From: Clostridiales bacterium
GTDB taxonomy: Bacteria; Bacillota; Clostridia; Peptostreptococcales; Acidaminobacteraceae
DNA length: 64,000 bases
Assembly (NCBI GenBank): GCA_030446305.1
Contig: JASUSA010000005.1
Location: 1-64,000 of the forward strand
Reading direction: 5' to 3'
Position 1 is the stretch's first letter. Each line of letters begins with the position of its first letter. Made by a program: the position numbers and the translations under genes. The notes beneath the pieces were generated by a model that was not told where the DNA came from, did no database searches, and saw nothing but the letters and a program-made list of their open reading frames with translations. This document shows, in pieces, positions 42,227 to 62,325 of this stretch.

Positions 42227-43771
42227 TTATAATTTTAAATTCATTACTTCTGGTCTGAAGATTCTCTCATCCATTATCTTGAGATCTTTTGCAATCGCTG
42301 GTTTGAATTCCATCTGTGCCAATATATCTTTCTCAAGATCCACGCCTGGAGCGATTTCAGTAAGGGTTAATCCCTCTTCTGTCAGTTCAAATACCGCTCT
42401 CTCCGTAACATAAATAACGGGTTGCTTAATTTCATAAGCATATTCGCCGGAGAATGTAACCTGTTCACAAGCTTCATTGAACTTTTTCGCTCTACCTTCG
42501 TTTGCTATAACGAGTTTGCCATCTTCAACTGCGATTTCCAAACCACCTGCTGTAAAGGTGCCGCAATAGACAACCTTTTTCGCATTTTGAGAAATATTGA
42601 TGAAGCCACCGCATCCAGGTACTTTAATCCCAAACTTGGACACATTGACATTGCCTTTCTTGTCGCATTGTGCAAGACCGAGGAATGTCACGTCCAAACC
42701 GCCGCCATCGTAAAAATCGAACTGATACGGCTGGTCAATAATCATATCCGGATTGATTGCTGCACCAAAGCTTTGACCACCGGCTGGTATGCCGCCGATT
42801 GTACCTGCTTCAGTCGTCAAGATCAGACCCTCAATGCCCTCTTCAGCTGCTACCATGGAAACGCCTTCGGGCATCCCTATACCCAAGTTCATAATGGCGT
42901 TTTCCTTTAATTCCATTGCGGCTCTACGCGCGATGATCTTGCGCTCGTTTAGCGGCAATGCAGGTATGCTTTTCATTGGAATTCTGATGTCTTGACTGTA
43001 AGACGGATTATACTGCTCTGCAAAAGTCTGCATGTGTTCAGAAGGATCTGCTTCCACAATGGCATCAACATAAATACCTGGTAATTTGACGAGTTTGTGG
43101 TTCAGCGTACCATCTGCAACAACTTTTTCAACTTGCAGGATTACGACACCGCCTGAATTTTTAACAGCTTGAGCGATCGACAACATTTCGAGGCTCGCTG
43201 CTTCTCTTTCAAATGTACAGTTGCCAAATGAATCTGCATAGGTTCCTCTGACAAGTGCAACATCTACTGGAAATGCTTTATAAAATAGCCATTCTTCGTT
43301 ATTCAGTGTCACGACTTCGACTAAATCTTCCGTCGCGCTCTTGTTAATTTTTCCGCCTTCTAGTCTAGGGTCAACGAAGGTTTTAAGACCAACCTTCGTA
43401 ATAACCCCAGGTGTTCCCGCGGCGATTGCTCTAAAGAGATGAGAAATTGCGCCCTGTGGAAAATTGTAGGCTTCTATTTTTTCATCGAGTGCCAGCTTGC
43501 CTAATTTAGGTGCCAGCCCCCAGTGTCCACCAACAACTTTTTTCACAAGCCCTTCATGACCAAAGTGATTTAGACCTCTGTTCTTGCCATCGCCTTGCCC
43601 TGCTGCATAGACCAACGTTAAATCGCGTGGATGTCCCTCTTTTAAAAATGCGTCTTCGATCCCTCTGCTCAATGCTTCAGGATGCATATTCCCTACAAAA
43701 CCACCAGATGCAAGCGTTGCGCCATCTTTGATCATGGCGATTGCCGATTCAAGTGTCATCACTTTATTCAT
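42227..43771 (-). CDS. Propionate/acetate-type acyl-CoA transferase (family I)
   Basis: 514-aa fused alpha-beta CoA-transferase of the Pct/YdiF type. It transfers CoA between acetyl- or propionyl-CoA and short fatty or hydroxy acids through a glutamyl-CoA intermediate. The N-terminal half has [20 protein letters not shown] and oxyanion-type [16 protein letters not shown]; the C-terminal half has [12 protein letters not shown] and the catalytic Glu321 in [20 protein letters not shown] precedes the ATG. It sits between a GntP-type permease and an SDR enzyme, so the imported acid is probably activated here. Lactate or 3-hydroxybutyrate are candidate substrates. Confidence 0.92.
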
Positions 43772-43803
43772 GATAGCCTCCTAATATTTAAATCAACTGT
43801 TTC

Positions 43804-45159
43804 TTAAACAAGACCTGTTGTCAGATAGACGATTGACGTTACAACAACAGAGATGAGCGGTAATACCATCGTCAATACCGCAATGTCGCCATAGCTTTCT
43901 TTATGCGTTAATTTACATACGGAAAGCAACGTGATAACGGCACCACAGTGTGGCAGTGAATCAAGACCACCGGAAGCTAAGAGCATAATTCTGTGCAGTG
44001 CCTCTGGGTTGATCCCCATTGACATGAATTCGTCTGATAAAACTTCGAGTGCAATGGCTGTACCACCGGAAGACGAACCAACGATACCAGCGAGTAATGT
44101 CGTAGAAATTGCGACTTTAAAGATTGATGGAATTGACATTGCAACGATCATGCCCTTAACAGTTGTAAATGCTGCAAGCGACTTGATAACGCCGCCGTAA
44201 CCAACTTCTGAACCAGTGTTGAAGATTGGCAGAAGGGCACCAACTGCACCGTCAAACATAACTTTATTGGTATTGACAAGGTATTTTCTCATGGCGATCA
44301 AAATAAAGACAACTGAAATTGAAAGACCGAGAACAACTGGCCAAGTCCCATTGACTTTGCCGCCAACAGCTTCATATTTTGCAATGACAGAAGGCATTGT
44401 GAAATACAATTTTGTAAAGACGTAGTTAAGCACGAATACCATCGCAATTGGCGCAAATGATAATCCAATATTTGGCAAATCGCCTTCAAAGTCATGTAAT
44501 CCTTCGTTTTCATGGTTACCATAGCCTTCACCCGCCGCATTGGCTTGGGCAGCTCTTCTGTTTAACCACCAAACGCCGCCGAAGAACATAATGGCTGCTG
44601 CAATGATCCCAAGAATTGGACCTGCGTAAATATCTGTGCCGAAGTAAACGGTCGGCATTGTGTTAAGGTATTGCGGTGAACCAGGAAGTGCTGTCATTGT
44701 GAAGGAGAAAGCACCACTGGCAATTGCTGCAGGCAATAAACGTTTTGGTACATCTGCTTCTTTGTAGAGCATTGCGCCGATTGGATACATTGCGAAAACG
44801 ACAACGAACAGTGAAACCCCACCATATGTCAACAGACCCGTTGCCACGATAACCGCTGCAATCGCATGTTTTTTACCAAACTTCGAAGAAATAAAGTGTG
44901 CAATTGTAGTTGCAGCACCTGTAACGCCCATGAGTTTACCAAAGATTGCGCCTGCTAAAAAGACAGGATAATATGAAGAAATATAGCCTGTTGCTGCTGG
45001 CATGAAGATATTGGAAAGTGCGTAAAGCGGTGGAATTTCACCTGACATAAGCGCTGCCAACATCGCGAGAATTGGTGCTAAGATCAAAACGGTAATGCCT
45101 CGATAAGCAAAATACATTAAACATACTAAAGTTAATATAATCGAGAGTACACCTAACAT
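43804..45159 (-). CDS. GntP family permease
   Basis: 451-aa secondary transporter with about 12 hydrophobic helices. The family includes gluconate:H+ symporters and D-beta-hydroxybutyrate permeases. Recognisable segments are GYISSYYPVFLAGAIFGKLM, GVSLFVVVFAMYPIGAML, GALLPIFNTGSEVGYGGVI and the well-conserved LASGGLDSLPHCGAVITLL. Next to a CoA-transferase and an acetoacetyl-CoA reductase-type enzyme, 3-hydroxybutyrate is the most attractive substrate, but gluconate-like acids are not excluded. GGGGG precedes the ATG. Confidence 0.88.
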   Translation of the reverse strand: MLGVLSIILTLVCLMYFAYRGITVLILAPILAMLAALMSGEIPPLYALSNIFMPAATGYISSYYPVFLAGAIFGKLMGVTGAATTIAHFISSKFGKKHAIAAVIVATGLLTYGGVSLFVVVFAMYPIGAMLYKEADVPKRLLPAAIASGAFSFTMTALPGSPQYLNTMPTVYFGTDIYAGPILGIIAAAIMFFGGVWWLNRRAAQANAAGEGYGNHENEGLHDFEGDLPNIGLSFAPIAMVFVLNYVFTKLYFTMPSVIAKYEAVGGKVNGTWPVVLGLSISVVFILIAMRKYLVNTNKVMFDGAVGALLPIFNTGSEVGYGGVIKSLAAFTTVKGMIVAMSIPSIFKVAISTTLLAGIVGSSSGGTAIALEVLSDEFMSMGINPEALHRIMLLASGGLDSLPHCGAVITLLSVCKLTHKESYGDIAVLTMVLPLISVVVTSIVYLTTGLV

Positions 45160-45169
45160 CTAAATCCCC

Positions 45170-45661
45170 CTAACTGATCAATAATTGAATAATGACATAA
45201 AATGTGTAAGTCATCGACACTAAAATGGTCGCGTACATTAAGTAGAAAATGGTAAAAATGAATTTACGGCCTTTTTCAAGCACTTCAACATGTTTTGGTA
45301 CCATTTTCTCAGCGACATCCGGTTGTTTTGAATCATGAATGACATTGCCAATCATTCTGAGAAGCAAATACGTTGCCGCCATTAGGCTCACTAAATAAAT
45401 CATACTGAGTTGGATGCCGGCAGATTTTTCAATAATGGAAACAATCGTCGTTATGGCAATTAACGGCGCAAACCAGTAATCCATCTTGAATGCACGATAA
45501 TCCTGTTGATACATCTCAGTGAGAAGCATCCTGACCACGAGCACTGCCAAGTGCATGTACTTGTACTCCTGCGGCCAATAAATCTGCTGCGTTAACGTAA
45601 AGATTAGCAACGCCTGATAGACCAAGTTCAAAATACGTGGTTTCATAATCGCTCCCATCAT
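45170..45661 (-). CDS. Uncharacterised small membrane protein, first gene of sigma-54 operon
   Basis: 163 aa with four hydrophobic stretches (about 9-27, 34-50, 62-108 as two helices, and 134-160) and a basic loop near DSKQPDVAEKMVPKHVEVLE. I recognise no domain. It is ten bases upstream of the GntP gene and is the first gene after the -24/-12 promoter, so it may assist or regulate the permease. AGGAGG lies 11 bases before ATG 45661, rather far; ATG 45658 is next to it. Confidence 0.75.
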   Translation of the reverse strand: MMGAIMKPRILNLVYQALLIFTLTQQIYWPQEYKYMHLAVLVVRMLLTEMYQQDYRAFKMDYWFAPLIAITTIVSIIEKSAGIQLSMIYLVSLMAATYLLLRMIGNVIHDSKQPDVAEKMVPKHVEVLEKGRKFIFTIFYLMYATILVSMTYTFYVIIQLLIS

Positions 45662-45718
45662 AAAAAGCCAAACCTCCTAAACATAATAATAATCATTCAC
45701 CTCCACTCTTATTTAATA

Positions 45719-45734
45719 TGCAATACACATGCCA
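45719..45734 (-). promoter_or_regulatory. Sigma-54 promoter of the GntP/CoA-transferase operon
   Basis: TGGCATGTGTATTGCA on the minus strand fits the consensus TGGCAYRNNNNTTGCW at every fixed position. The expected transcription start is near 45709, about 50 bases before the first gene. The divergent-side neighbour encodes a sigma-54 activator, which strongly supports the call. Confidence 0.88.
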
Positions 45735-45830
45735 ACTTTACGAACAATTATTTACCCAATTTTACAGTGAAATGACCATTTTTTACGTTTTTTTGGCAAA
45801 AAAATCCTTATGTACAACAAAAAAACAAAA

Positions 45831-45856
45831 AAAGTGTAAAAATAAATTTACACTTT
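45831..45856 (-). terminator. Palindrome: terminator of the activator gene and possible activator site
   Basis: AAAGTGTAAA-N6-TTTACACTTT is a perfect 10-bp inverted repeat. On the minus strand seven T residues follow, so it can terminate the activator gene that ends at 45965. Its core TGTAAA-N6-TTTACA recurs at 45918-45935 and lies about 100 bases upstream of the -24/-12 promoter, as an enhancer site would. Confidence 0.7.
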
Positions 45857-45917
45857 CTTTTCGCTTTTTTTCCACTATGTCAATCAAACATTACAGATAT
45901 GTCGAAGCATCACCCAC

Positions 45918-45935
45918 TGTAAATATAAGTTTACA
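45918..45935. promoter_or_regulatory. Candidate activator-binding palindrome
   Basis: TGTAAA-N6-TTTACA repeats the core of the palindrome at 45835-45852, 83 bases away (close to eight helical turns), upstream of the sigma-54 promoter. The rest of 45662-45964 shows only AT-rich sequence. Confidence 0.5.
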
Positions 45936-45964
45936 ATTTGCAAGTGTGCAATTTCTGGTCACTT

Positions 45965-47725
45965 CTATTTCAAGTCGAATTTCTCTAATTTTTTATGCAG
46001 CGCCATCCTTGAAATTCCAAGGTCTTCAGCGGTTCTGGTCTTATTGCCTTTGAAGTATAAAAGTCTTTCTAAAATAATTTTTTTCTCGACATTTTCCATC
46101 ACCACGCGTAGCGGATCGCCTACATAATCGTCTTCAGTCGCCTTAAGCTGCATCGGCAAATGGTACGGTTGAATGTATTCTTCACCTTCAATGATGTTGT
46201 AAGCGCGTTCAATCACGTTTCGGAGCTCTCTAATATTCCCTTTCCATTGATAAGATGTCAACAAAAGTTGCGCTTTTTCTGAAACACCTTTAATTTTGCC
46301 GTGATTTTGACGGTTCAGCGTTTCTAAAAAATGCTTCGATAAAAGAATGATATCCTCTTTGCGATCTCTCAGCGGCGGTATTGAGAGATTAATGACATTC
46401 AGTCTGTAATAAAGGTCTTCACGGAAGGTTTTTTCCTCAACCATTTCCCTGAGATTTTTATTGGTCGCCGCTATAACGCGCACATCAATCTGCTTCGGTC
46501 GGTTAGAACCCACGCGTTCCACTTCGCCTTCCTGAATGACGCGCAAGATTTTCGCCTGCATTTGCAGTGGCATGTCGCCGATCTCATCGAGGAAAATCGT
46601 TCCTTGGTCAGCCAATTCAAACTTCCCAATCTTTCCGTTTTTATCGGCACCGGTAAATGCACCTTTTTCATACCCAAATAATTCCGATTCTAACAAGTGC
46701 TCAGGAATTGCCGCACAGTTGACAGAAACAAACGGCATCTCAGAACGCTGACTTTCGTTGTGAATAGCATGTGCAAACAATTCCTTGCCAGTGCCGCTCT
46801 CACCTTGAATAAGCACATTCGAGCGCGTATGGGCAATTTTCCGCACATACTGCTTGAGCTTGTCCATCTGCAAATTGCCGGTGATGATGTGATCCAGCGT
46901 ATACTTGGCACGGTGCAGATTGCTAATTTCCGATTTTAAATTACGCAGTTCCTGTTCAATTTTATTGTATTTTTTATTGATATTGTGAAGTTCTGAAACA
47001 TTTCTGAAAATAACCTTACCAATGGCACCTGCGAGTTTACCATCCACATAATAGGGAATCCGAGTTGCCACCATATAATCGCCGCGAATCTCCTGAAAGT
47101 CATTGATTTCCGGAATTCCCGTTTTTGCTACAATATGCATCCGTGTATTTTCAATAATATCCGTGACGTGCTTGCCGATAACAGCATCATCTTCGCGGCC
47201 TAAAAATCGCTTGTATGCATCAGACAGCATGGTAATATAACCGTCCTTATTGACGACGACAATGCCATCGTAGGCCAGTTCCAAGACTGTTTTTAAAATG
47301 GCCATCTCACTGCGTTCAGCCTCAAATCTCAAATTAAGGTTCTCAAATTTTGTGATATCGTCAAAGATTGCAATGGCACCTACAAGTTTGCCGTCTAAAT
47401 AGAATGGGAGCCGCGACGTAATGCAGATATGATTGCGAACGATTATGCGAACATCCCGTTCGGCAGTTTCTGTTTTCACAATGCGCTCGAGCTCAGATTC
47501 GGCATAGACTTCAAGAATATACCGATCTGTTGCATATTCCTTTGTTAAATCCAAAAGTTCCAACGCTCTGACATTGATAAATTTAACAACACCCTTTAAA
47601 TCAATAATGATAATCGCATTGCGCATTTCATCAAAAATAGCACTGTTTTCGTGAAAATAATCAAATAGTGTCACCAAATCCCCCTCATCTGCAATCCTCA
47701 CACTTTTCAGTATGGTTTCTCGCAT
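45965..47725 (-). CDS. Sigma-54-dependent activator with two PAS domains
   Basis: 586-aa enhancer-binding protein. Two PAS domains (about 20-110 and 140-240) are followed by a linker coiled coil and the AAA+ domain (about 285-520): Walker A IQGESGTGKELFAHAIH, the sigma-54 contact GAFTGADKNGK, Walker B TIFLDEIGDM and the R-finger region LYYRLNVI. A Fis-type helix-turn-helix ends the protein (NKTRTAEDLGISRMALHKKL). No receiver domain, so a ligand is probably sensed by PAS. Its ATG overlaps the xth stop by one base. It most likely drives the operon that begins at 45661. Confidence 0.93.
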   Translation of the reverse strand: MRETILKSVRIADEGDLVTLFDYFHENSAIFDEMRNAIIIIDLKGVVKFINVRALELLDLTKEYATDRYILEVYAESELERIVKTETAERDVRIIVRNHICITSRLPFYLDGKLVGAIAIFDDITKFENLNLRFEAERSEMAILKTVLELAYDGIVVVNKDGYITMLSDAYKRFLGREDDAVIGKHVTDIIENTRMHIVAKTGIPEINDFQEIRGDYMVATRIPYYVDGKLAGAIGKVIFRNVSELHNINKKYNKIEQELRNLKSEISNLHRAKYTLDHIITGNLQMDKLKQYVRKIAHTRSNVLIQGESGTGKELFAHAIHNESQRSEMPFVSVNCAAIPEHLLESELFGYEKGAFTGADKNGKIGKFELADQGTIFLDEIGDMPLQMQAKILRVIQEGEVERVGSNRPKQIDVRVIAATNKNLREMVEEKTFREDLYYRLNVINLSIPPLRDRKEDIILLSKHFLETLNRQNHGKIKGVSEKAQLLLTSYQWKGNIRELRNVIERAYNIIEGEEYIQPYHLPMQLKATEDDYVGDPLRVVMENVEKKIILERLLYFKGNKTRTAEDLGISRMALHKKLEKFDLK

Positions 47726-50744: not shown

Positions 50745-51470
50745 TTATTTCGCAATCACCACGAGCGACATGGATTCAAGCGCTTTAAACGGCGATAAAT
50801 CAAATCCGCCATAAATGGCAATATCCTTGAAACCGGCAAGTTTTAGCATATCGACTAAATTTTCGCATTTCAGCGGCAGCAATGTCGTCAACTGATTGCT
50901 GTGGTAATCTCCAACTTCTAGAATACCATTAAACAAAATACGATGATTTTCAAAGTCATGTGTATAATGTCGTTTAAACGTGAGTCCTGCCCGTTTGTTC
51001 ACAATCGTCGGCAGTTTTAACACAAAGTGATAAATCACGCGATCGTAATTGACAATTTGAATTAGCAGTCTCCCGCCGGGATTCAATACCCGCTTCATGC
51101 CCTTAATACATTTTTGAACTTCTTCAAAGCTGCCAAGATGTACAATGGAATTGCCAATATTGATAATGGCATCGTAGCGTTCGTCAACACTTTCTGCAAC
51201 ATCTCTCATATTGAATTGTTTTACTTCCACTGGAAAATCAAGTAACTGATTTTTTGTACTCAGTTTTTGGATCATCGAATCATCCAAATCTGAAGCGGTC
51301 ACCTGATAGCCCTTCTCTGCAAGCGCAAGACTATAACTGCCCGTCCCGCAGGCTAAGTCGAGTATTTTTGCTGGCGGATCGCCTGCAACACTCGTCATAA
51401 CACAAAGCTGTTTGACGCCCAATGGAAAAATATCGTCGTAATAAGCTGCAATTGCTTCATAAAATTTCAT
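50745..51470 (-). CDS. SAM-dependent class I methyltransferase
   Basis: 241-aa cytosolic methyltransferase. The SAM motif I is KILDLACGTGSYSLALAEKG, followed by the acidic VTASDLDDSMI, FNMRDVAE, and motif-IV-like AIINIGNSIVHLG. Substrate unknown. It is not a clear UbiE/MenG by signature, but it lies beside a cluster with UbiD, UbiA and UbiX proteins, so a quinone-methylation role deserves testing. ATG 51470 has GGAG six bases upstream and begins where the fold begins. It follows the binding-protein gene on the same strand. Confidence 0.87.
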   Translation of the reverse strand: MKFYEAIAAYYDDIFPLGVKQLCVMTSVAGDPPAKILDLACGTGSYSLALAEKGYQVTASDLDDSMIQKLSTKNQLLDFPVEVKQFNMRDVAESVDERYDAIINIGNSIVHLGSFEEVQKCIKGMKRVLNPGGRLLIQIVNYDRVIYHFVLKLPTIVNKRAGLTFKRHYTHDFENHRILFNGILEVGDYHSNQLTTLLPLKCENLVDMLKLAGFKDIAIYGGFDLSPFKALESMSLVVIAK

Positions 51471-51526
51471 GTCTAACTCCCGCGTCACGCCTCATGCCAT
51501 GACTATTCCTTAACAAACATTATATG

Positions 51527-52489
51527 TTAAAAATCTGCATTCGGCAAATACTTCGTAAAGGAAATTGATTCAAAATCATACTTTTGTTCTGTGAGACCGC
51601 GTTCATACATCCAGTCAGACGTAATTTCAAACGTCACTGAATCAGGTGCGGCAATTGCCTTGTAAGTTGGCAATACAGATGTATTTCTCAGCACCTCACT
51701 AAAACCGAGGACTTCAACCAACCGGTCATAAATTGCATCGGATCCATTGTCATTCAACCATGCTGCTGCATCGTTATAGGCTTTGAAGATTGCTTTTGAA
51801 ACAGCCTCGTCTGATGCCAGCGCATCGCTAAAAACCAAAATGCCCGGTGACAAGCCGTAAGTTGACATCGTGCCAATCACTTCACCGCCATCAATCATTG
51901 CCGTACTAGCCAGCGGCTCAGGCAGCGTTGCAGCTTTTAATTTACCCGATTTGAGCATTTCAAGTCTTACTGGCATCTGAGGAATTGCAATAGGCTGTAT
52001 CCTTTGACTAATCCCCTGCTGTTTCGCAATATAATCTGTTGCAAAATCGATAACGGTATTTGAAGAAACACCCACACTGGCAGACGCCAATTGATTAAAA
52101 GATGCTATCGTTAAATCAGGTGATGTGATCATCAAATAATCACCATCAGTCTGCGCCACCATTTTAACCGGCAAATCTGCATCGTTATAAAAAATAATCG
52201 ACAGCATATCTGCCATCGTTGCATCCAAATTACCCGTTTGAAGCGCGGCATCTCGATCAAGCGCGCTCTTAAAGACGACGATTTCAACGTCTACGCCGGC
52301 TTCTTCATAAAACCCTTTTTCCGAAGCAATAAAAAAAGGAACCGCGCCGACATCGGACATGACACCAATTTTAAGTTTTTCATGCTGCCCTGCATCCTGG
52401 TTTCCCTGTTCATTCGTATCACTGCCTGCACAACCTGCAAACAGAACCAGCGCCACTAGGCCAATCAGTATATATTTAAATGTCTTCAT
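51527..52489 (-). CDS. ABC transporter substrate-binding lipoprotein (NMT1/SsuA type)
   Basis: 320-aa extracytoplasmic receptor. The signal peptide ends in lipobox VLFAGC. The mature part has the NMT1/THI5-SsuA pattern: KIGVMSDVGAVPFFIASEKG, GVDVEIVVFKSALDRDAALQ, LDATMADML and MPVRLEMLKSGKLKAATLPE. This fold binds small aromatic, sulfonate or pyrimidine-type ligands. It is divergent from the UbiD-UbiA-UbiX-ATPase-permease operon and should complete that transporter. GGAGG lies before the ATG. Confidence 0.88.
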   Translation of the reverse strand: MKTFKYILIGLVALVLFAGCAGSDTNEQGNQDAGQHEKLKIGVMSDVGAVPFFIASEKGFYEEAGVDVEIVVFKSALDRDAALQTGNLDATMADMLSIIFYNDADLPVKMVAQTDGDYLMITSPDLTIASFNQLASASVGVSSNTVIDFATDYIAKQQGISQRIQPIAIPQMPVRLEMLKSGKLKAATLPEPLASTAMIDGGEVIGTMSTYGLSPGILVFSDALASDEAVSKAIFKAYNDAAAWLNDNGSDAIYDRLVEVLGFSEVLRNTSVLPTYKAIAAPDSVTFEITSDWMYERGLTEQKYDFESISFTKYLPNADF

Positions 52490-52563
52490 ATTGCCTCCAA
52501 AAAAGTATTCGCAGTCACCATTTTATCACAGATAACTTGCTCGGTCTACGCCAATTGCCATCG

Positions 52564-52592
52564 TTGACATCAACTTTCAAAATTATTACAAT
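52564..52592 (+). promoter_or_regulatory. Promoter of the UbiD-UbiA-UbiX-ABC operon
   Basis: TTGACA, exactly 17 bases, TACAAT on the plus strand. The expected start near 52599 leaves a very short leader that contains the GGAGG of the first gene. Confidence 0.8.
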
Positions 52593-52613
52593 GAATATAA
52601 ATTGGAGGAAATA

Positions 52614-54356
52614 ATGACCTATAGAGACTTAACATCATATATGAGGGCTTTAGAGCAACGCGGTTGGCTCAAAACAATAGAGAGAGAAGTTGACCCCGAG
52701 CTGGAAATTACAGAAATAACGGACCGTATTTCGAAGCAAATCGGTCCCGCTTTATTGTTTAAACACGTTAAGGGATCGCCATACCCACTCGTCATCAATT
52801 TGATGGGAACGTACGAACGCCTGTCACTTGGGCTCGGCGTCGAATCGCTGGATGATATTGCAAAGCGAATCACAGGCTATCTGGATGTGAAATCCTACAG
52901 CACTTTAATCGGCAAAATCAAGGCAATTCCATCATTGGCGCCGCTTCCTTTTATTTTTCCAAGACGCGTGCGGCACGGCGCATGCCAGGAAGTTATTGAA
53001 GCACCCGATTTGGACACACTGCCCATTATCAAATGCTGGCCGCAGGATGGCGGCAAATACATCACACTGCCATTGGTCTTTACCAAGGACCCTGAAACCG
53101 GTCAGCAAAATGTCGGTATGTACCGCCTTCAGGTATACGATGCTCAGACCACCGGCATGCACTGGCACCTGCATAAAGACGGTAGAGAAATCTATGAAAA
53201 ATATCGAAAAATCGGCAGGCGTATGCCCGTTTCTGTCGCAATTGGCTGTGATCCGACCATTATCTATTCGGCGACAGCGCCACTGCCGAAGATGATTGAT
53301 GAAATGATTTTCGCAGGTTTTCTAAAGAATAGGCCTGTTAAAATGGTTAAATCCATCACAAACGATATTCTCGTCCCAGCTGATGCTGAATTTATATTAG
53401 AAGGCTATGTCGATCTCAATGAAAAGCGCCGCGAAGGACCGTTTGGCGATCATACAGGATACTATTCCCTTGAGGGCGATTACCCGGTTTTCCATCTTGA
53501 GAAGATTACACACAAACGCCATCCCGTTTATCCAACGACAATTGTTGGCAAACCACCGATGGAAGATTGCTACCTCGGCAAAGCAACCGAGCGAATCTTC
53601 TTACCGCTGTTAAAACTGCAATGCCCGGAAATCGTTGATATGGACTTTCCGCTGGAAGGTGTTTTTCACAACTGCGCCATCGTTTCAATAAAAAAAGCGT
53701 TTCCGCTTCACGGCAATAAAATACTCAGTGCACTTTGGGGCCTCGGGCAAATGATGTACACAAAGATGATCATTATCGTCGATGATGATATTGCCATTCA
53801 CGATTATTCAAACGTCGTCCGTACCTTGCTGGCAAATGCGACAAAACCGTCACACTTTATTTTGTCAGAAGGGCCGCTCGACGCCTTGGATCATGCCTCT
53901 AACCGTCCCCTTCAGGGCTTTAGGCTCGGCATTGATGCAACGCGAAAACTGCCGTCGGAAGATTCCGGCAAACCGCTCTCAGTCGATATCATAGAAAAAG
54001 CACTTTCATCAATCGGCACAGATGAACTCGCGATTCAAACCTTTGATAAGCAAAACGGCATCACTGCCAAGGTCTATTTATCCCAGCAGCAGTCAAGACA
54101 TCATGTACTCGTGCTCGTCGACAATTGGATTGATCCTAAAAACCTATCCACTGTCGCATGGAAAATTTTTAACAATATCGATCCAAAACGCGATCTCATG
54201 ATTCACACACGACCAGACGGCTATCTGTTTATCGGCATTGATGCAACGAAAAAAGGACCTGAAGACGGGCTGGAAAGACCTTGGCCCGATGATATTGTCA
54301 TGTCTGACGAGGTTATTGCCAGTGTATCTGAGAGGTGGCAATCTTATGGTCTTTAA
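52614..54356 (+). CDS. UbiD-family decarboxylase (MqnL-like)
   Basis: 580-aa prenylated-FMN-dependent aromatic acid decarboxylase. UbiD marks include MYRLQVYDAQTTGMHWHLHK, the conserved Arg/Glu segment EKRREGPFGDHTGYYSLEGD, LPLLKLQCPEIVDM and a C-terminal RPDGYLFIGIDATKK. The length fits the menaquinone-pathway (futalosine) branch rather than E. coli UbiD (about 500 aa). prFMN would come from the UbiX protein two genes on. ATG 52614 has GGAGG at five bases. Expected reaction: removal of the carboxylate from a prenylated naphthoate or benzoate. Other aromatic acids are possible. Confidence 0.88.
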   Translation: MTYRDLTSYMRALEQRGWLKTIEREVDPELEITEITDRISKQIGPALLFKHVKGSPYPLVINLMGTYERLSLGLGVESLDDIAKRITGYLDVKSYSTLIGKIKAIPSLAPLPFIFPRRVRHGACQEVIEAPDLDTLPIIKCWPQDGGKYITLPLVFTKDPETGQQNVGMYRLQVYDAQTTGMHWHLHKDGREIYEKYRKIGRRMPVSVAIGCDPTIIYSATAPLPKMIDEMIFAGFLKNRPVKMVKSITNDILVPADAEFILEGYVDLNEKRREGPFGDHTGYYSLEGDYPVFHLEKITHKRHPVYPTTIVGKPPMEDCYLGKATERIFLPLLKLQCPEIVDMDFPLEGVFHNCAIVSIKKAFPLHGNKILSALWGLGQMMYTKMIIIVDDDIAIHDYSNVVRTLLANATKPSHFILSEGPLDALDHASNRPLQGFRLGIDATRKLPSEDSGKPLSVDIIEKALSSIGTDELAIQTFDKQNGITAKVYLSQQQSRHHVLVLVDNWIDPKNLSTVAWKIFNNIDPKRDLMIHTRPDGYLFIGIDATKKGPEDGLERPWPDDIVMSDEVIASVSERWQSYGL

Positions 54357-55218
54357 AAATGCAATCAACCGCCTCCATCGCTATGGTGAGCTCGTAATGT
54401 TCTCTCATACACTTTTCTCACTGCCATTTGCAATGATCGCCATGTTTTTAGCAGCAAAAGGGCTGCCGGATGCCATAACCTTTTTTTGGATTCTCGTGGC
54501 ACTCTTTGCCGGACGCAACGGTGCCAATGCACTGAACCGATACGTTGATGCGCGATTTGATGCACTCAATCCGCGAACTGCAAGTCGACATATCCCAGTT
54601 GGAAGTGTCAAGCCAAAAGAAGCCTTGATTCTCACTGGCATTGCCTATATCATCTTCGTCTTCGCCGCTGCGATGCTCAACCCAATCTGTCTCTATTTAT
54701 CGCCGGTTGCGCTTTTGCTTTTTACACTTTATTCCTATACAAAACGCTTTACATGGCTATGCCATCAAATTCTTGGCATTACATGTGCCGGGGCGCCAGT
54801 TGGCGCTTGGCTTGCCGTTACAGGCAGCTTTTCACTGACGCCGCTAATACTTGCAGCCGTGGTAACCCTGTGGATTTCTGGTTTTGACATTCTCTACGGG
54901 ACACAGGACATTGCATTTGACAGGGCACAGGGGCTTTATTCCATTCCCGCACGATTTGGTTTAAAGGGCGCATTGTCTATTGCACGCGCAAGTCATTTTA
55001 TAATGTGGCTGCTCCTCTTGCTGCTGACGTTTCAATCGCCGCTGCTATCCGTGACAACGCGCATTGGTGTCTTATGCAGTGGTCTTCTGTTGATCGTCGA
55101 ACACCTCAGCGTTGATCCTGCACATCGTCAGAAAATGAATTTTGCATCTTATCACCTCAATCAGATTATATCTGTCATGCTCTTTATTTCAGTAACACTG
55201 GATATATTTATCTTTTAA
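54346..55218 (+). CDS. UbiA-family prenyltransferase (MqnP-like)
   Basis: 290-aa integral membrane protein with eight to nine helices. The two Mg-pyrophosphate motifs are ALNRYVDARFDALNPRT and GFDILYGTQDIAFDRAQGLY, followed by SIPARFG. The second motif is the form seen in the futalosine-pathway MqnP/UbiA group. It should attach a polyprenyl chain to an aromatic acid in the membrane. ATG 54346 overlaps the UbiD end by 11 bases and has AGAGGTGG upstream. Confidence 0.9.
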   Translation: MVFKNAINRLHRYGELVMFSHTLFSLPFAMIAMFLAAKGLPDAITFFWILVALFAGRNGANALNRYVDARFDALNPRTASRHIPVGSVKPKEALILTGIAYIIFVFAAAMLNPICLYLSPVALLLFTLYSYTKRFTWLCHQILGITCAGAPVGAWLAVTGSFSLTPLILAAVVTLWISGFDILYGTQDIAFDRAQGLYSIPARFGLKGALSIARASHFIMWLLLLLLTFQSPLLSVTTRIGVLCSGLLLIVEHLSVDPAHRQKMNFASYHLNQIISVMLFISVTLDIFIF

Positions 55219-55268
55219 CTTTTACAGCACATTGCATCATTTCCTTACCGATCAAAGGAGGCCTACAT

Positions 55269-55850
55269 TTGAAAAAAATCATTATTGGAATCACCGGTGC
55301 CAGCGGAAGCATCCTGGCACAATATCTTATAAAGGGCATATCAGCACACGACGTGGCATGTCACTGCGTCTTAACCGGCAATGGCGAACGCGTCTTCGAA
55401 TATGAAACCGGCCAGTCTTTTGATGATTTCATCAAATCATTGGGGGAAACAAGCTGTGCCATTGTCAAACATGATAATGACAACCTCTTTGCGCCAATCG
55501 CCAGCGGTTCATATGGGTTTGATGCCATGATCATCATTCCCTGCAGCATGGGTTCCCTAGCCAAAATCGCACATGGCTATGCGGACAGCCTCTTGCTCAG
55601 AGCTGCAGATGTCTGCATTAAAGAGAAGCTACCCCTCCTTGTAGTCCCCAGAGAAACGCCGCTCTCTGTCATCCACTTACGAAATATGCTGACCCTTAGC
55701 GAAGCAGGTGCTACCATTATGCCGCCAATGCCCGCCTATTATCAGCATCCAACCACCGTTTCAGAAATCACTTGGCTTACCGTCGGCCGTATCATGGAAA
55801 AAATCGGCATTCCAAATGAATACCATCAAACGTGGCAAGGAGCAAAATAA
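55269..55850 (+). CDS. UbiX-family flavin prenyltransferase (MqnM-like)
   Basis: 193-aa enzyme that makes prenylated FMN, the cofactor of the UbiD decarboxylase in the same operon. Marks: IIIGITGASGSILAQYLIKG, IIPCSMGSLAKIAHGYADSL, VVPRETPLSVIHLRNM and the phosphate-binding YYQHPTTVSE. The start is a TTG (55269) preceded by AAAGGAGG. Cytosolic dodecamer in known members. Confidence 0.94.
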   Translation: MKKIIIGITGASGSILAQYLIKGISAHDVACHCVLTGNGERVFEYETGQSFDDFIKSLGETSCAIVKHDNDNLFAPIASGSYGFDAMIIIPCSMGSLAKIAHGYADSLLLRAADVCIKEKLPLLVVPRETPLSVIHLRNMLTLSEAGATIMPPMPAYYQHPTTVSEITWLTVGRIMEKIGIPNEYHQTWQGAK

Positions 55851-56581
55851 TGGCCGCAATCTGTTTTGATCATTTTAAAATTCAGTATGCAGCCAAAACC
55901 GTCTTGGCAATTGATTCGCTGACGCTGACACCTGAAAAAATCTATGCCGTCATCGGTCCCTCCGGCTGCGGTAAAACAACCATGCTCTACGCACTGTCTG
56001 GACTGCTGCCCCACGCTGCAAAAGCCAGCGGCACACTGCGCAACGACGTTATGGATTCGACACATATCGTCCTTCAAGATTTTGGACTCCTCCCCTGGAA
56101 GACCGTTCTTGAAAATGTCATGCTTCCAATGGTTCTTAAAAACAGCGTCACCCATGAACACATACAGTCAGCACGAGCGCTGTTAAAATGGTTCAAGTTG
56201 GCCGATTTCGAAAGCGCTTATCCTTTAACGCTGAGCGGCGGTCAGAAACAGCGTGTCGCTTTGGCACGCGCGTGGCTGACATCACCAAAACTCCTGTTAA
56301 TGGACGAGCCGTTCTCCGCCTTGGATGCCATCACACGTGAAACGCTGCAGGATGAGGTGAAAAATCTTTATCATCAATCACCAAAATCAGTGGTGATCGT
56401 CACACATAGCATTGAAGAAGCCGCTTTTTTAGGCGAGTCTATTATTATCCTCTCAGCAGATGGCACCCTCTCTGAGGTCGTGGAAAATCCTTCGTTCACA
56501 CTTCAAAATGCAAGGTCGACGACTGATTTCTACACCATGTGCTACGAACTGCGCAAACGCATGAAGGCGGTGCATTTATGA
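55850..56581 (+). CDS. ABC transporter ATPase (NitT/SsuB/TauB type)
   Basis: 243-aa nucleotide-binding subunit. Walker A VIGPSGCGKTTMLYALSG, signature LSGGQKQRVALARAW, Walker B LLLMDEPFSALDAITR and H-loop IVTHSIEEAAFLG. It groups with the nitrate/sulfonate/pyrimidine import family, matching the NMT1-type receptor at 51527. The ATG overlaps the UbiX stop by one base (TAATG), so it is translationally linked to quinone-type enzymes. Confidence 0.9.
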   Translation: MAAICFDHFKIQYAAKTVLAIDSLTLTPEKIYAVIGPSGCGKTTMLYALSGLLPHAAKASGTLRNDVMDSTHIVLQDFGLLPWKTVLENVMLPMVLKNSVTHEHIQSARALLKWFKLADFESAYPLTLSGGQKQRVALARAWLTSPKLLLMDEPFSALDAITRETLQDEVKNLYHQSPKSVVIVTHSIEEAAFLGESIIILSADGTLSEVVENPSFTLQNARSTTDFYTMCYELRKRMKAVHL

Positions 56582-57309
56582 AGAAAAAACAAATACTCTA
56601 TAGCAGTGTTACCATCTTTGTCTTATGGCTTGCATTGGCACTCCTTGACCGTCGCGGTATTATTCCGCCGCCCGGCAACGTCATCTTTTATATGTCCACA
56701 CACTGGGCGCGTTTGATGCAGCATCTCTCAATGAGCTTTTTCCGCATTTGCATCGCTATTTTTGCCACCATGATCTGCGGAACGGCTGTTGGCATTCTTT
56801 CTGCGAGACATACAAAAGCAGATGTCATCATTACACCGCTGCTCTACGCGTTTTATCCCGTTCCCAAAATTGCTTTTTTACCGCTGCTCATGCTCTTTTT
56901 CGGACTGGGCAATACCTCAAAGATTCTACTCGTTGGCCTTATTTTATTTTTTCAAATCGCCATTGCCGTTAGGGACGGGGTCAAGCACATCCCCGAAGGT
57001 TATTTTTTAACGGTAAGACCTTTTCATCCAAATACCTTGCAGCTTTATCGCCATGTCATCCTGCCGGCACTTTTGCCACAGCTTTTTACGGCATTGCGTG
57101 TCAGTGTCGGCACGAGTATATCCGTCCTCTTCTTCGCCGAGAATTTTGCAACGCAGTACGGCATTGGCTATTTTATCATGGACAGCTGGCTCAAACTTGA
57201 TTACAGCGCTATGTTTGCAGGTATTATTGCCATTAGCTTTATGGGCGCCTTCATCTTTCTCCTGATTGACTTATCCGAAAAACATTTCTGTCGATGGCGG
57301 TTATTGTAA
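56578..57309 (+). CDS. ABC transporter permease (NitT/SsuC type)
   Basis: 243-aa membrane subunit with about six helices and an EAA coupling loop (FHPNTLQLYRHVILPALLPQ). Other family-like features are LLYAFYPVPKIAFLPLLMLF, FFGLGNTSKILLVGL and the ending around LDYSAMFAGIIAISFMG. The ATG overlaps the ATPase stop (ATGA). With the receptor and ATPase it forms a complete importer. Last gene of the operon. Confidence 0.9.
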   Translation: MKKKQILYSSVTIFVLWLALALLDRRGIIPPPGNVIFYMSTHWARLMQHLSMSFFRICIAIFATMICGTAVGILSARHTKADVIITPLLYAFYPVPKIAFLPLLMLFFGLGNTSKILLVGLILFFQIAIAVRDGVKHIPEGYFLTVRPFHPNTLQLYRHVILPALLPQLFTALRVSVGTSISVLFFAENFATQYGIGYFIMDSWLKLDYSAMFAGIIAISFMGAFIFLLIDLSEKHFCRWRLL

Positions 57310-58518: not shown

Positions 58519-59928
58519 TTAGGCATCTTCATCAATCCCCAATTTATTCATCTTTTTATAAAGTGCCGTCCGATGAATGCCAAGCATCACTGCCGCTTCT
58601 GTACGATTGCCGTGGCATTTGTCCAGTGCATCCAGAATGATCTGGCGTTCTACATCCTGCATCATATGTTTGAGATCGCCTTCAAGCGGCAGCGAAAGCG
58701 GATTAAATTCACTGTTTTGATGCGAATTTTGTCGAAATTTTGAAATGTAGTCCGGTAGACTCGATGCAATAATCGTCTTTGCATTGGTTAAACTCACGGC
58801 GCTCTCAATGACGTTGCGAAGCTCGCGAATGTTGCCCGGCCATTGGTACTGTTCGAGACAGTGCAGCGCTTCACGCGAAAACTGTGTTGGGCAGTTAGGA
58901 TAATCTGCCGCAAAATGCTTCAGAAAATGATTGGCCAGCATTGGCACATCTCTTTTGCGTTCCGCCAGTGGCGGCAGTGAAATCGTCACCACATTTAATC
59001 GATAGTAAAGGTCACTGCGAAAACGACCGTTTACCACCATTTCACGTAAATTCTCGTTACTGGCTGATAAAAAGCGAATATCCAGCGGAATGCGTTCGTT
59101 GCCGCCAATGCGTTCCAACTCTCTTTCTTCGATGACCCTTAATAGTTTTGCCTGCATTTCATAAGGCATTGAACTCAGCTCATCTAAAAAAATAGTCCCG
59201 CCATTCGCAAGCTCAAATTTGCCGATTTTGCCATGACTGGATGCGCCGGTAAATGCGCCCGGTTCATAACCAAAGAGTTCTGACTCAAACAAATCCTTGG
59301 GAATACCCGCGCAGTTAATCTTGACAAAGGGGCCATACCGCCGATAACTCGCTTCGTGAATTGCGTGTGAAAAGTATTCTTTTCCCGTACCACTTCTGCC
59401 TTCAATGTATACGCTGGAGTTCGTCTCAGCCGCTTTTTTGGCAATGCCAATCATCATCAGCATCTGAGGATCATTGGTCAGAATTTGTTCAAAGGAATAC
59501 TTCGCCTGATTGAGCCGTGGCAAATCCTGTTTATATTTTTTAATGTGCACCTTCATTTGATCGAGGTGTTCTACCATGTGCTTTACTTCTGATACGTCTT
59601 TGAAGAGTATCGTCCCAACGGCACCCACGACAACACCATTTCTGAGAATGGGAATTCTCGATGTAATGACATTGTGACCTTTAATCGTCTGCACATCGCC
59701 TATTTCAGGGTGTCCAGTTTTTAAAACGATGTGAAGACGCGTATTTTCAATTACTTCGGTGACGTGTTTTCCCATGACCTCTTCTTCTTTCACGTCCAAA
59801 AATTTTTCATATTTAAATTTGATAATGAAACCATCTTTATCGACGATAATCAGCCCTTCATAAGCTTTTTCGATAAATTCGTCGATGATTTCCATCTCCC
59901 ATTTTAATTGCGCATACGTCTTCTCCAC
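58519..59928 (-). CDS. Sigma-54-dependent activator with one PAS domain
   Basis: 469-aa enhancer-binding protein. One PAS domain (about 10-115), a short linker, then AAA+ (about 165-400): Walker A IEGRSGTGKEYFSHAIH, contact loop GAFTGASSHGKIGK, Walker B TIFLDELSSM and LYYRLNVV. The Fis-type helix-turn-helix is NRTEAAVMLGIHRTALYKKM. No receiver domain. It lies downstream of atoE on the same strand and most likely activates the -24/-12 promoter before atoD. It is shorter by one PAS than its counterpart at 45965. Confidence 0.92.
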   Translation of the reverse strand: MEKTYAQLKWEMEIIDEFIEKAYEGLIIVDKDGFIIKFKYEKFLDVKEEEVMGKHVTEVIENTRLHIVLKTGHPEIGDVQTIKGHNVITSRIPILRNGVVVGAVGTILFKDVSEVKHMVEHLDQMKVHIKKYKQDLPRLNQAKYSFEQILTNDPQMLMMIGIAKKAAETNSSVYIEGRSGTGKEYFSHAIHEASYRRYGPFVKINCAGIPKDLFESELFGYEPGAFTGASSHGKIGKFELANGGTIFLDELSSMPYEMQAKLLRVIEERELERIGGNERIPLDIRFLSASNENLREMVVNGRFRSDLYYRLNVVTISLPPLAERKRDVPMLANHFLKHFAADYPNCPTQFSREALHCLEQYQWPGNIRELRNVIESAVSLTNAKTIIASSLPDYISKFRQNSHQNSEFNPLSLPLEGDLKHMMQDVERQIILDALDKCHGNRTEAAVMLGIHRTALYKKMNKLGIDEDA

Positions 59929-60011
59929 ATCTTACTCCTGTTCTGTTCGACGTTTTTATTTATTGTATCAAAATTCAAAATCATTGACAGTAAAAAGATG
60001 ATGCATGAACA

Positions 60012-60038
60012 GAAAGCCTGCCGATATGGCAGGCTTTC
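60012..60038 (-). terminator. Terminator of the ato operon
   Basis: GAAAGCCTGCC and GGCAGGCTTTC form a perfect 11-bp stem with a 5-base loop, followed by a weak T-rich stretch on the minus strand. Confidence 0.7.
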
Positions 60039-60089
60039 AACCATTGTATGAACATACGTAAATGTATTAACATACAAAATTAATTAACA

Positions 60090-61445
60090 TCATAGGAACA
60101 TCAAGCCCAAGGCGATAATAACACCTGTGTAGAGCAAGTCAATAACACAGAAGCCCATGATATCACGTGCCCCGAGATTTGCAATGCCAAGTGCCGGCAG
60201 TGCCCAGAACGGTTGGATCATATTCGTCCACGCATCACCCCATGCAATAGCCATCGCTGTCTTAGCGGTACTGACGCCGAGTTCAACACTGGCAGGCATC
60301 ATGATTGGTGCTTGAACAGCCCATTGACCACCGCCTGAAGGTACGAAGAAATTGACAACGCCTGCACTTAGGAAAGTGAACAGCGGATAAGTCGTTTGTG
60401 TAGAAATCGCTACGAAAAATTGAGAAATTTCACCTGCCAAGGATGCACCAGTCGCTGCGCTGACACCTGTCATCATCCCCATGATCCCCGCATAGAATGG
60501 GAATTGAAGAATAATGCCGGCTGTGCCTTTGGCCGCTGCAGAAATGGCATCCAAGAATCGTCTTGGCGTCTTGTGCAGGAGAATACCGAGGAACAAGAAT
60601 AAGAAGTTAACGATGTTAAGGTTGAGTTCGAATCCATTTGTCGCAAAATAATAAATGATATAAACGAGACCCATGGCACCAATCAGCATTGAGAGTACCA
60701 TGCTGTTTTCCATTTTATCAGCAAAGGTATCGCCATGTTTAATGGTTTCAACTGTTTCGTTGTCATCTTCCAACAATTTAGGATCAACAACGATCACCTC
60801 ATCCTCACTTGGGTGCATAAACCGATTGAGGAATGGCATCGTAATGAGAATAATTCCGAATATAACTAAATTGAATGGTGCAAAGATCGTCTGTGAAGTA
60901 CTGATTGGATCAATAACGGCATTGTTTGTCGCTTTGGCTAATTCAGCACCCGCTGTCGCAACTTTAAGTGGAATAGAACCTGATATACCGGAGTGCCATA
61001 CGACGAAACCAGAATATGCCGATGCTATCAGCAGTCGATAATCCACACCTTTAACCACACGTGCAAGTTCTTTTGCATAGAGTGCGCCGACGACAAGACC
61101 AAATCCCCAGTTGATCCAGCATGCAATTGTCGATACAAATGTAACGGCGAGGATTGCTTGAAGCGGTGTTTTACATGGTCGTGCAAGTGCCTGCAAAATA
61201 TTTTTGACAACTTTTGTACTCGCCAGTGTATGACCGGTTACAAGTACCAGTGCCATTTGCATTGAGAATGCTAACAAACTCCAAAATCCGCCTGCCCAGT
61301 GGCCGATCATCGCCATTGGCGATTGTGAAGTTGAAATCATGCCGGCAACAAATACGATGAGTGTTAAAATAACACAGAATAAAAATGGATCCGGCAAATA
61401 GTTTTGAACAAGTTTGACACAACCACGTGTAAACTTTTTAAACAT
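60090..61445 (-). CDS. atoE: Short-chain fatty acid transporter
   Basis: 451-aa carrier with about 11-12 helices. AtoE-like segments: YLPDPFLFCVILTLIVFVAG, HWAGGFWSLLAFSMQMALVL, CWINWGFGLVVGALYAKELA, YSGFVVWHSGISGSIPL, FVPSGGGQWAVQAPIM and AWGDAWTNMIQPFWALP. It should import acetoacetate, butyrate or similar short acids. ATG 61445 follows AGGAGG; the frame adds 11 codons upstream without a site. It is downstream of atoDA with a hairpin in the gap. Confidence 0.92.
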   Translation of the reverse strand: MFKKFTRGCVKLVQNYLPDPFLFCVILTLIVFVAGMISTSQSPMAMIGHWAGGFWSLLAFSMQMALVLVTGHTLASTKVVKNILQALARPCKTPLQAILAVTFVSTIACWINWGFGLVVGALYAKELARVVKGVDYRLLIASAYSGFVVWHSGISGSIPLKVATAGAELAKATNNAVIDPISTSQTIFAPFNLVIFGIILITMPFLNRFMHPSEDEVIVVDPKLLEDDNETVETIKHGDTFADKMENSMVLSMLIGAMGLVYIIYYFATNGFELNLNIVNFLFLFLGILLHKTPRRFLDAISAAAKGTAGIILQFPFYAGIMGMMTGVSAATGASLAGEISQFFVAISTQTTYPLFTFLSAGVVNFFVPSGGGQWAVQAPIMMPASVELGVSTAKTAMAIAWGDAWTNMIQPFWALPALGIANLGARDIMGFCVIDLLYTGVIIALGLMFL

Positions 61446-61543
61446 AGAATCCCTCCTAATAATATAATGATGACACATCTATGAGATCAGCACCTAAAAA
61501 CATTATTTTGAAATACTGTAGATTGCCATGCATCATTTCAGGT

Positions 61544-61591
61544 GCCGGCATCCCAGCGCATACATAATTGTATAACGCTATGAATGCCGGC
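61544..61591 (-). other. Intergenic RNA hairpin between atoA and atoE
   Basis: GCCGGCAT and ATGCCGGC pair perfectly, with further AGCG/GCGC pairing inside. No U-tract follows, so it may stabilise or separate the mRNA parts. The rest of 61446-61677 is empty. Confidence 0.55.
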
Positions 61592-61677
61592 TCCCTTCAT
61601 CAGCTTGACAATTCAGCAATTCTAATCACAGTCACACGATCAAAGCCCTTACTATGAATAGCTTTGAATAGCAATGA

Positions 61678-62325
61678 CTAGACCATTGGCTTCAGGTTAT
61701 CTGAAATCAACAAATTGGCTTCTGTCGCTGCCTTTATTTCATCTAATGCATATTCAGGATTGTACTCTACGAGCAATAAACCTTCTTCAGTCACTTCCAT
61801 GACGCCCATTTCAGTGATGATTTTACTTACCTTTTTCGCCCCCGTCAAAGGTAAGTCGCATTTCTTAAGAATTTTCGGTGTGCCCTTTTGCGTGTGCTGC
61901 ATTGCAACAATCACTTGTTTTGCACCACCGACGAGATCCATTGCACCGCCCATTCCAGGAACGAGCTTACCAGGGATCATCCAGTTTGCCAGATTACCTT
62001 CTTCGTCTACTTGCAATGCGCCTAATACCGTCGCATCAAGATGTCCGCCTCTGATGATAGCAAATGACATCGCACTGTCGAAAAATGATCCGCCAGGCAT
62101 AATGGTAACAGGTAATCCGCCGGCATTTACGAGATCAGGGTCTATTTCTTCGCCTGATTGTGCCGGTCCAATGCCTGTGAAGCCATTTTCAGAGTGTAAA
62201 ACGATTTCAACATCATCTGGTACATAGTTGGCTACTAAAGTTGGCAACCCAATTCCGAGGTTTACCACATCGCCGTCTTTAAATTCTTTTGCTACTCTTT
62301 TGGCAATTAATTCTTTAACATCCAT
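61678..62325 (-). CDS. atoA: 3-oxoacid / acetoacetate CoA-transferase subunit B
   Basis: 215-aa beta subunit. It carries the catalytic glutamate in [20 protein letters not shown], preceded by [20 protein letters not shown], and [40 protein letters not shown]. With the alpha subunit it moves CoA from acetyl- or butyryl-CoA to acetoacetate or butyrate. AGGAGG precedes the ATG, 11 bases after the alpha subunit stop. Confidence 0.94.

Follow-up and report, generated by a model that had tools for sequence, protein, structure and literature searches.

The gene cluster analysed here lies at positions 50745-57309 of a 64,000-nucleotide stretch (the window) of contig JASUSA010000005.1, from the Clostridiales bacterium assembly GCA_030446305.1 (family Acidaminobacteraceae). 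It probably encodes a late futalosine pathway coupled to import, in which an ATP-binding cassette (ABC) importer for 1,4-dihydroxy-6-naphthoate, or for a close naphthoate, feeds MqnP, MqnL and UbiX. This model is built on what the sequences show, namely the genes present, how they are conserved, the lack of MqnA and MqnD and an Ndh2/Eet/DmkB locus elsewhere in the genome; the importer's substrate, the transport direction, the product and its use are deduced from these.

According to the model, the lipoprotein receptor would capture a dihydroxynaphthoate outside the cell, in all likelihood 1,4-dihydroxy-6-naphthoate originating from futalosine-pathway neighbours, and the ATPase-permease pair would bring it into the cell. 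MqnP (UbiA) would add a polyprenyl tail, supplied by the DmkB encoded on another contig (C123), and MqnL (UbiD), with the prenylated flavin mononucleotide (prFMN) made by UbiX, would take off the carboxylate of the ring, yielding demethylmenaquinone. This quinone would then serve membrane electron transfer, plausibly via the Ndh2-EetA-EetB-DmkB module of C123.

Enzymes and importer of the operon

UbiD, UbiA, UbiX, the ATPase and the permease form, in that order, a single operon from which the NMT1-type receptor gene diverges (Table 1). On TIGR03701, the model for the menaquinone biosynthesis decarboxylase (MqnL), UbiD reaches 629 bits, the curated cut-off being 495.9; its EGPFGDHTGYY motif lines up with E. 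coli UbiD, and it is the sole UbiD of its genome. The first-pass annotation had read the length of this protein as a sign of MqnL, which does not hold: its 580 amino acids are no hallmark, the MqnL proteins of other Clostridia families having mostly about 480. UbiA, in which the motifs quoted by the same annotation are present and both Asp-rich motifs are intact, finds its best model in MqnP_DT (302.1 bits, versus 108 bits on the ubiquinone-type UbiA model) and passes the broader UbiA-like model TIGR01475 (281 versus 180.8). UbiX exceeds the curated models PRK06029 (205.5 versus 188) and TIGR00421 (185.6 versus 108.9).

The operon would cover prenylation and decarboxylation and, since no methyltransferase of MenG/UbiE grade accompanies these steps (the best candidate of the genome reaches 72 bits on TIGR01934, against a cut-off of 158.35), the product is likely demethylmenaquinone. 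The methyltransferase encoded behind the receptor, which the first-pass annotation had put forward as a possible last enzyme of the pathway, probably lies outside the system: every curated match is far under its cut-off (41 bits on TIGR01934), and the gene is found in two of the nine family genomes carrying the cluster, namely the one studied here and a relative of the same genus.

An ATPase, a BPD_transp_1 permease and a lipoprotein binding protein (lipobox LFAGC) are encoded together, the combination that characterizes a binding-protein-dependent ABC importer. All three fall far under the curated cut-offs of the taurine and alkanesulfonate families (TauABC/SsuABC), their closest named relatives; unlike those importers, this one is partnered with quinone enzymes and not with sulfonate-using enzymes. 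The AlphaFold model of the receptor is a confident two-lobe binding protein (mean predicted local distance difference test score 88) whose fold neighbours are SsuA, CmpA, NrtA, Thi5 and PqqT, with MqnD and MqnA ranked lower. This fold could accommodate a carboxylated aromatic ligand but is too widespread to single out a substrate. The receptors of 27 cluster loci form one homologous group in which S75, R79, D80, Q84, D94, S142, T145 and R175 are invariant, a pattern consistent with a ligand common to all of them. The distance matrices of the receptor (r 0.88) and of the permease (r 0.90) both agree with that of UbiA, which supports a joint inheritance of importer and UbiA, though plain vertical descent could give the same agreement.

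Conservation in the family and across Clostridia

The window-type UbiD occurs in 9 of the 41 genomes of the family, the one studied here and eight others, and in all nine the receptor, UbiD, UbiA, UbiX, ATPase and permease genes are contiguous and identically arranged. The arrangement is not due to chance, because all eight other UbiD-carrying genomes keep the six genes in order. The first-pass annotation had called for the co-occurrence of seven genes in relatives: this stands for these six and fails for the methyltransferase, found only in the same-genus relative. The nearest named relative, Fusibacter paucivorans DSM 12116, carries the equivalent locus on its contig, with cluster genes 82-91% identical. 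Cluster relatives from other genera share with the window proteins about 65-71% identity for UbiD and UbiA, 49-59% for the permease and 43-47% for the receptor.

A scan of 84,980 species genomes with a receptor profile returned 14 loci, partly those of the family genomes, and every one has UbiX, ATPase and permease; UbiA is present in 13 and UbiD in 12, the two loci without UbiD being cut by contig ends. Two loci (L053 and L056) show a rearranged order, the receptor gene lying inside a co-directional operon rather than diverging from it. In an independent draw, 391 Clostridia genomes were searched with the MqnL model, which gave 21 further MqnL-grade loci from about ten families; in one of these loci the protein is truncated at a contig end. 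All 21 adjoin UbiA, and 19 adjoin members of this receptor/ATPase/permease set, whose order varies; of the two others, one ends at a contig edge just past UbiX, and in the second, close to a contig end, UbiA is damaged. Since the gene order shifts while the association persists, the cluster has the pattern expected of a functional unit. Furthermore, the transporter tracks the prenyl-acceptor step and not the flavin step, because at two loci (L110 and L112) it follows UbiA while UbiX is not adjacent.

Two additional features of these loci were observed. A U32-family protein (TrhP/UbiU-like, about 620-740 amino acids) and a class-III aminotransferase lie beside the MqnP-MqnL-ABC cluster in ten loci of several families (L020, L021, L022, L023, L044, L050, L108, L112, L113 and L114); the pair stands within the operon in L112 (12185-15600), and L117 has the U32 protein alone. 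The pair was not found at the window locus, nor at most other cluster loci. In three species of one genus (L118, L119 and L120), UbiD-UbiA is followed by a protein of about 1135 amino acids and then by the receptor.

Apparent incompleteness of the known precursor-making routes

MqnA and MqnD both belong to the Pfam family PF02621 (PMC3914697). A search with this family gave no match in the genome studied here, a 3.40-Mb draft (90.55% complete, 3.96% contaminated) of which the window represents contig C90, and did not extend to MqnB, MqnC and MqnE. In a search that likewise left MenB aside, the best MenD candidate of this genome reached 81.6 bits against a cut-off of 244.2, and none of the 41 family genomes exceeded it. 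Because MqnA and MqnD are absent and no protein is of MenD grade, neither known dihydroxynaphthoate route appears complete in this genome. A PF02621 search over the 391 Clostridia genomes yielded no convincing MqnA or MqnD in the genomes of the 21 further MqnL loci. Poor assembly does not explain the missing matches, because two cluster genomes available as single-contig assemblies (G077 and G219) also have none.

Weak PF02621 matches in cluster genomes were considered as MqnA/MqnD and rejected: those read, a set that left out the G015 match (26 bits) and some further weak ones, are binding proteins with a signal peptide and a lipobox, mostly encoded beside their own permease and ATPase. Over the 391 Clostridia genomes, PF02621 scores do not exceed 47 bits, and all four matches above the cut-off are lipoprotein binding proteins, at least three of which adjoin their own ABC genes. 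Widespread lipoprotein binding proteins with ABC genes, weak MqnA/MqnD Pfam scores and a KGP(T/S)-x-MG motif were noted at further loci (L027-L031, L101 and L129-L132), and this group is easily mistaken for menaquinone enzymes.

A complete mqn or men pathway with its own UbiA and UbiD had been named in the first-pass annotation as the observation that would oppose salvage. The genome holds no MqnA/MqnD, no second UbiD and no MenD above the cut-off, but it does hold a second UbiA on another contig (C108:1132-2139, L026). This protein is MenA/DmkA-like; it was rejected as a member of the cluster unit, because many genomes of the family have it although they lack the cluster. Taken together, the gene absences and the Clostridia-wide neighbourhood strongly support the earlier proposal that a naphthoate-type acid is imported and only the late futalosine steps are carried out, with a co-transcribed importer whose substrate is predicted from sequence.

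Possible link to extracellular electron transfer

The genome carries, on contig C123 (2389-6204, L075), an Ndh2-EetA-EetB-DmkB operon in which the polyprenyl synthase DmkB comes last, and it holds two polyprenyl synthases in all. The operon corresponds to the core of the Listeria system for flavin-based extracellular electron transfer (PMC9973259), whose locus comprises ndh2, eetA, eetB, dmkA, dmkB, fmnB and pplA. The Listeria head group is 1,4-dihydroxy-2-naphthoate (DHNA; PMC9973259), whereas the window system has MqnP-MqnL with an importer. At six loci of several families (L104, L105, L106, L115, L116 and L117), the cluster itself adjoins genes of this kind, each locus having some of polyprenyl synthase, ApbE, FMN-binding lipoprotein, Ndh2, NusG_II (EetA) and Hpre_diP_synt_I (EetB). 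At least for the lineages of those six loci, this adjacency suggests a role of the salvaged quinone in flavin-based extracellular electron transfer.

Alternative explanations

Several points weigh against the import-coupled futalosine model. The substrate of the importer is deduced from the identity of the enzymes alone, and the receptor fold fits binders of sulfonates, bicarbonate or thiamin precursors equally well or better. UbiA falls under the MqnP_DT cut-off of 430, that of an exception-type model, and can only be called MqnP-like. Two loci (L115 and L116) have no recognisable receptor adjacent, and three (L118-L120) have no adjacent ATPase or permease. The assembly is only 90.55% complete, and four pathway enzymes (MqnB, MqnC, MqnE and MenB) lay outside the searches. 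Finally, the MenA-like UbiA on C108 is a possible second, DHNA-based salvage route, so that the quinone could come from DHNA.

The main rival, which we judge unlikely, is that the importer takes another prenylatable aromatic acid (DHNA, 4-hydroxybenzoate or another quinone head group), which UbiA and UbiD would then use. The score of UbiA under the MqnP exception cut-offs, the MenA-like enzyme in the genome and the demonstrated cross-feeding of DHNA as a precursor (PMC10746273, PMC5738691) all speak for it. The enzymes of the operon speak otherwise, UbiD being of MqnL grade and UbiA scoring far higher on MqnP_DT than on the ubiquinone-type model. Moreover, MenA strips the carboxylate of DHNA during prenylation, so that a DHNA route would leave UbiD unnecessary.

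Weaker, and in our view quite improbable, is the import of riboflavin or another flavin precursor for prFMN and for flavin-based electron-transfer proteins. UbiX consumes FMN, the linked extracellular electron transfer genes need flavins, and vitamin-precursor binders occur among NMT1-type receptors; yet FMN and thiamin pyrophosphate riboswitches, sought as signs of riboflavin or thiamin uptake, were found at none of the 16 cluster loci scanned, and the transporter remains beside UbiA where UbiX is not adjacent. UbiD paralogues under the MqnL cut-off (L125 and L126), which also need prFMN, lie without UbiA and without any such transporter, and the source of the naphthoate would be left unexplained.

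Somewhat less credible again is the making of dihydroxynaphthoate within the cell by a non-orthologous replacement of MqnA-D, the transporter serving another purpose. The precursor-making enzymes are missing over a wide clade, as they would also appear to be if the route had been replaced, and the U32-family protein and aminotransferase beside the cluster in ten loci could be read in this sense; the near-constant neighbour of UbiD-UbiA is, however, an importer and not a set of biosynthetic enzymes, and most loci, that of the window included, lack the pair. A chance gathering of unrelated genes, or a catabolic operon for aromatic decarboxylation, is highly improbable: UbiD and UbiX also serve catabolic decarboxylases, and remote UbiD-UbiX loci (L013-L015) lack the transporter, but the cluster is kept across about ten families, rearranged but unseparated, and a membrane prenyltransferase is always present.

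Layout of the window locus

The gene order, the overlaps (11 nucleotides for UbiD/UbiA, 1 for UbiX/ATPase and 4 for ATPase/permease) and the divergent receptor and methyltransferase, as described in the first-pass annotation, proved exact to the base. UbiX starts at a TTG codon preceded by AAAGGAGG. The promoter-like element upstream of UbiD (52564-52592, + strand) matches the consensus at 11 of 12 positions, and its -35 hexamer is invariant in an alignment of eight relatives; by themselves, promoter scans of this type are at background level (14 found versus 13 expected).

Table 1. Features of the proposed import-coupled quinone locus and its flanks in the window
Feature	Position	Strand	Basis
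UbiD-type prFMN decarboxylase, MqnL	52614..54356	+	PF01977/PF20695/PF20696, TIGR03701
UbiA-type prenyltransferase, MqnP-like	54346..55218	+	PF01040, MqnP_DT
UbiX flavin prenyltransferase (MqnM), prFMN supplier for UbiD	55269..55850	+	PF02441, PRK06029, solved UbiX homologues
ABC importer ATPase, taurine/nitrate type	55850..56581	+	PF00005 (ABC_tran), conserved operon place
ABC importer permease, TauC/SsuC-like	56578..57309	+	PF00528 (BPD_transp_1)
Receptor lipoprotein with an NMT1/SsuA-like periplasmic-binding fold, proposed to bind a naphthoate	51527..52489	-	PF13379/PF09084 (NMT1_2/NMT1), lipobox
S-adenosylmethionine (SAM) methyltransferase, probably outside the conserved system	50745..51488	-	behind receptor
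Divergent intergenic region with sigma-70-like promoter ahead of UbiD	52490..52613	.	TTGACA-17-TACAAT

On either side (42227-47725 and 58519-62325), the window encodes CoA-transferases, organic-acid permease-like proteins and two PrdR/AtoC-like sigma-54 activators, which suggests that acyl-CoA fermentation genes surround the locus.

Relation to known systems and significance

The closest known system is the late futalosine pathway MqnP-MqnL-MqnM, predicted in PMC4746308, with which the window shares the same three enzyme families in one operon and a UbiD over the MqnL cut-off; it differs from it by its built-in ABC importer and by a genome without MqnA/MqnD. The lactic acid bacteria and gut quinone auxotrophs that scavenge DHNA (PMC10746273, PMC5738691) likewise turn an external soluble naphthoate into a membrane quinone, the early steps being missing, but they use MenA chemistry and no importer is known for them, whereas the window system combines UbiA/UbiD chemistry with a dedicated importer. 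For the receptor, PqqT (PDB 9b1u), an NMT1/SsuA-like receptor for pyrroloquinoline quinone, a carboxylated quinone, has the same fold (VIA Z 23.7, 268 residues, root-mean-square deviation 3.0). The two proteins share only 14% identity, and members of this fold class with other specificities reach higher scores. We know of no UbiD or UbiA partners of PqqT.

According to PMC4746308, uptake systems for soluble menaquinone precursors are to be expected and await annotation; PMC5738691 states that transporters for such precursors had not been described. No published description of the present importer was found in the literature searched, which lay mostly outside subscription journals. What appears new is not the enzymes, whose kind is known, but their coupling to an importer, the distribution of this form over Clostridia without MqnA/MqnD and its tie to genes for extracellular electron transfer.

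Could the MqnP and MqnL of Clostridia be mainly an obligate salvage route? In its broadest form, to which we give an even chance of holding as a whole, the proposal is that they are, and that an ABC importer dedicated to 1,4-dihydroxy-6-naphthoate, which would be the first for a menaquinone head-group precursor, makes these fermenters dependent for their quinone on futalosine-pathway neighbours and thereby enables flavin-based extracellular electron transfer, the U32-hydroxylase-like protein and the aminotransferase perhaps further modifying the quinone in some lineages. The operon provides a concrete candidate for a menaquinone-precursor importer, with one receptor gene, and it is present in the cultured type strain F. 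paucivorans DSM 12116. If the model is true, it would account for the many Clostridia that possess the late genes of menaquinone biosynthesis without the early ones, and it would predict a naphthoate cross-feeding from futalosine-pathway bacteria to fermenters that is tied to extracellular electron transfer.

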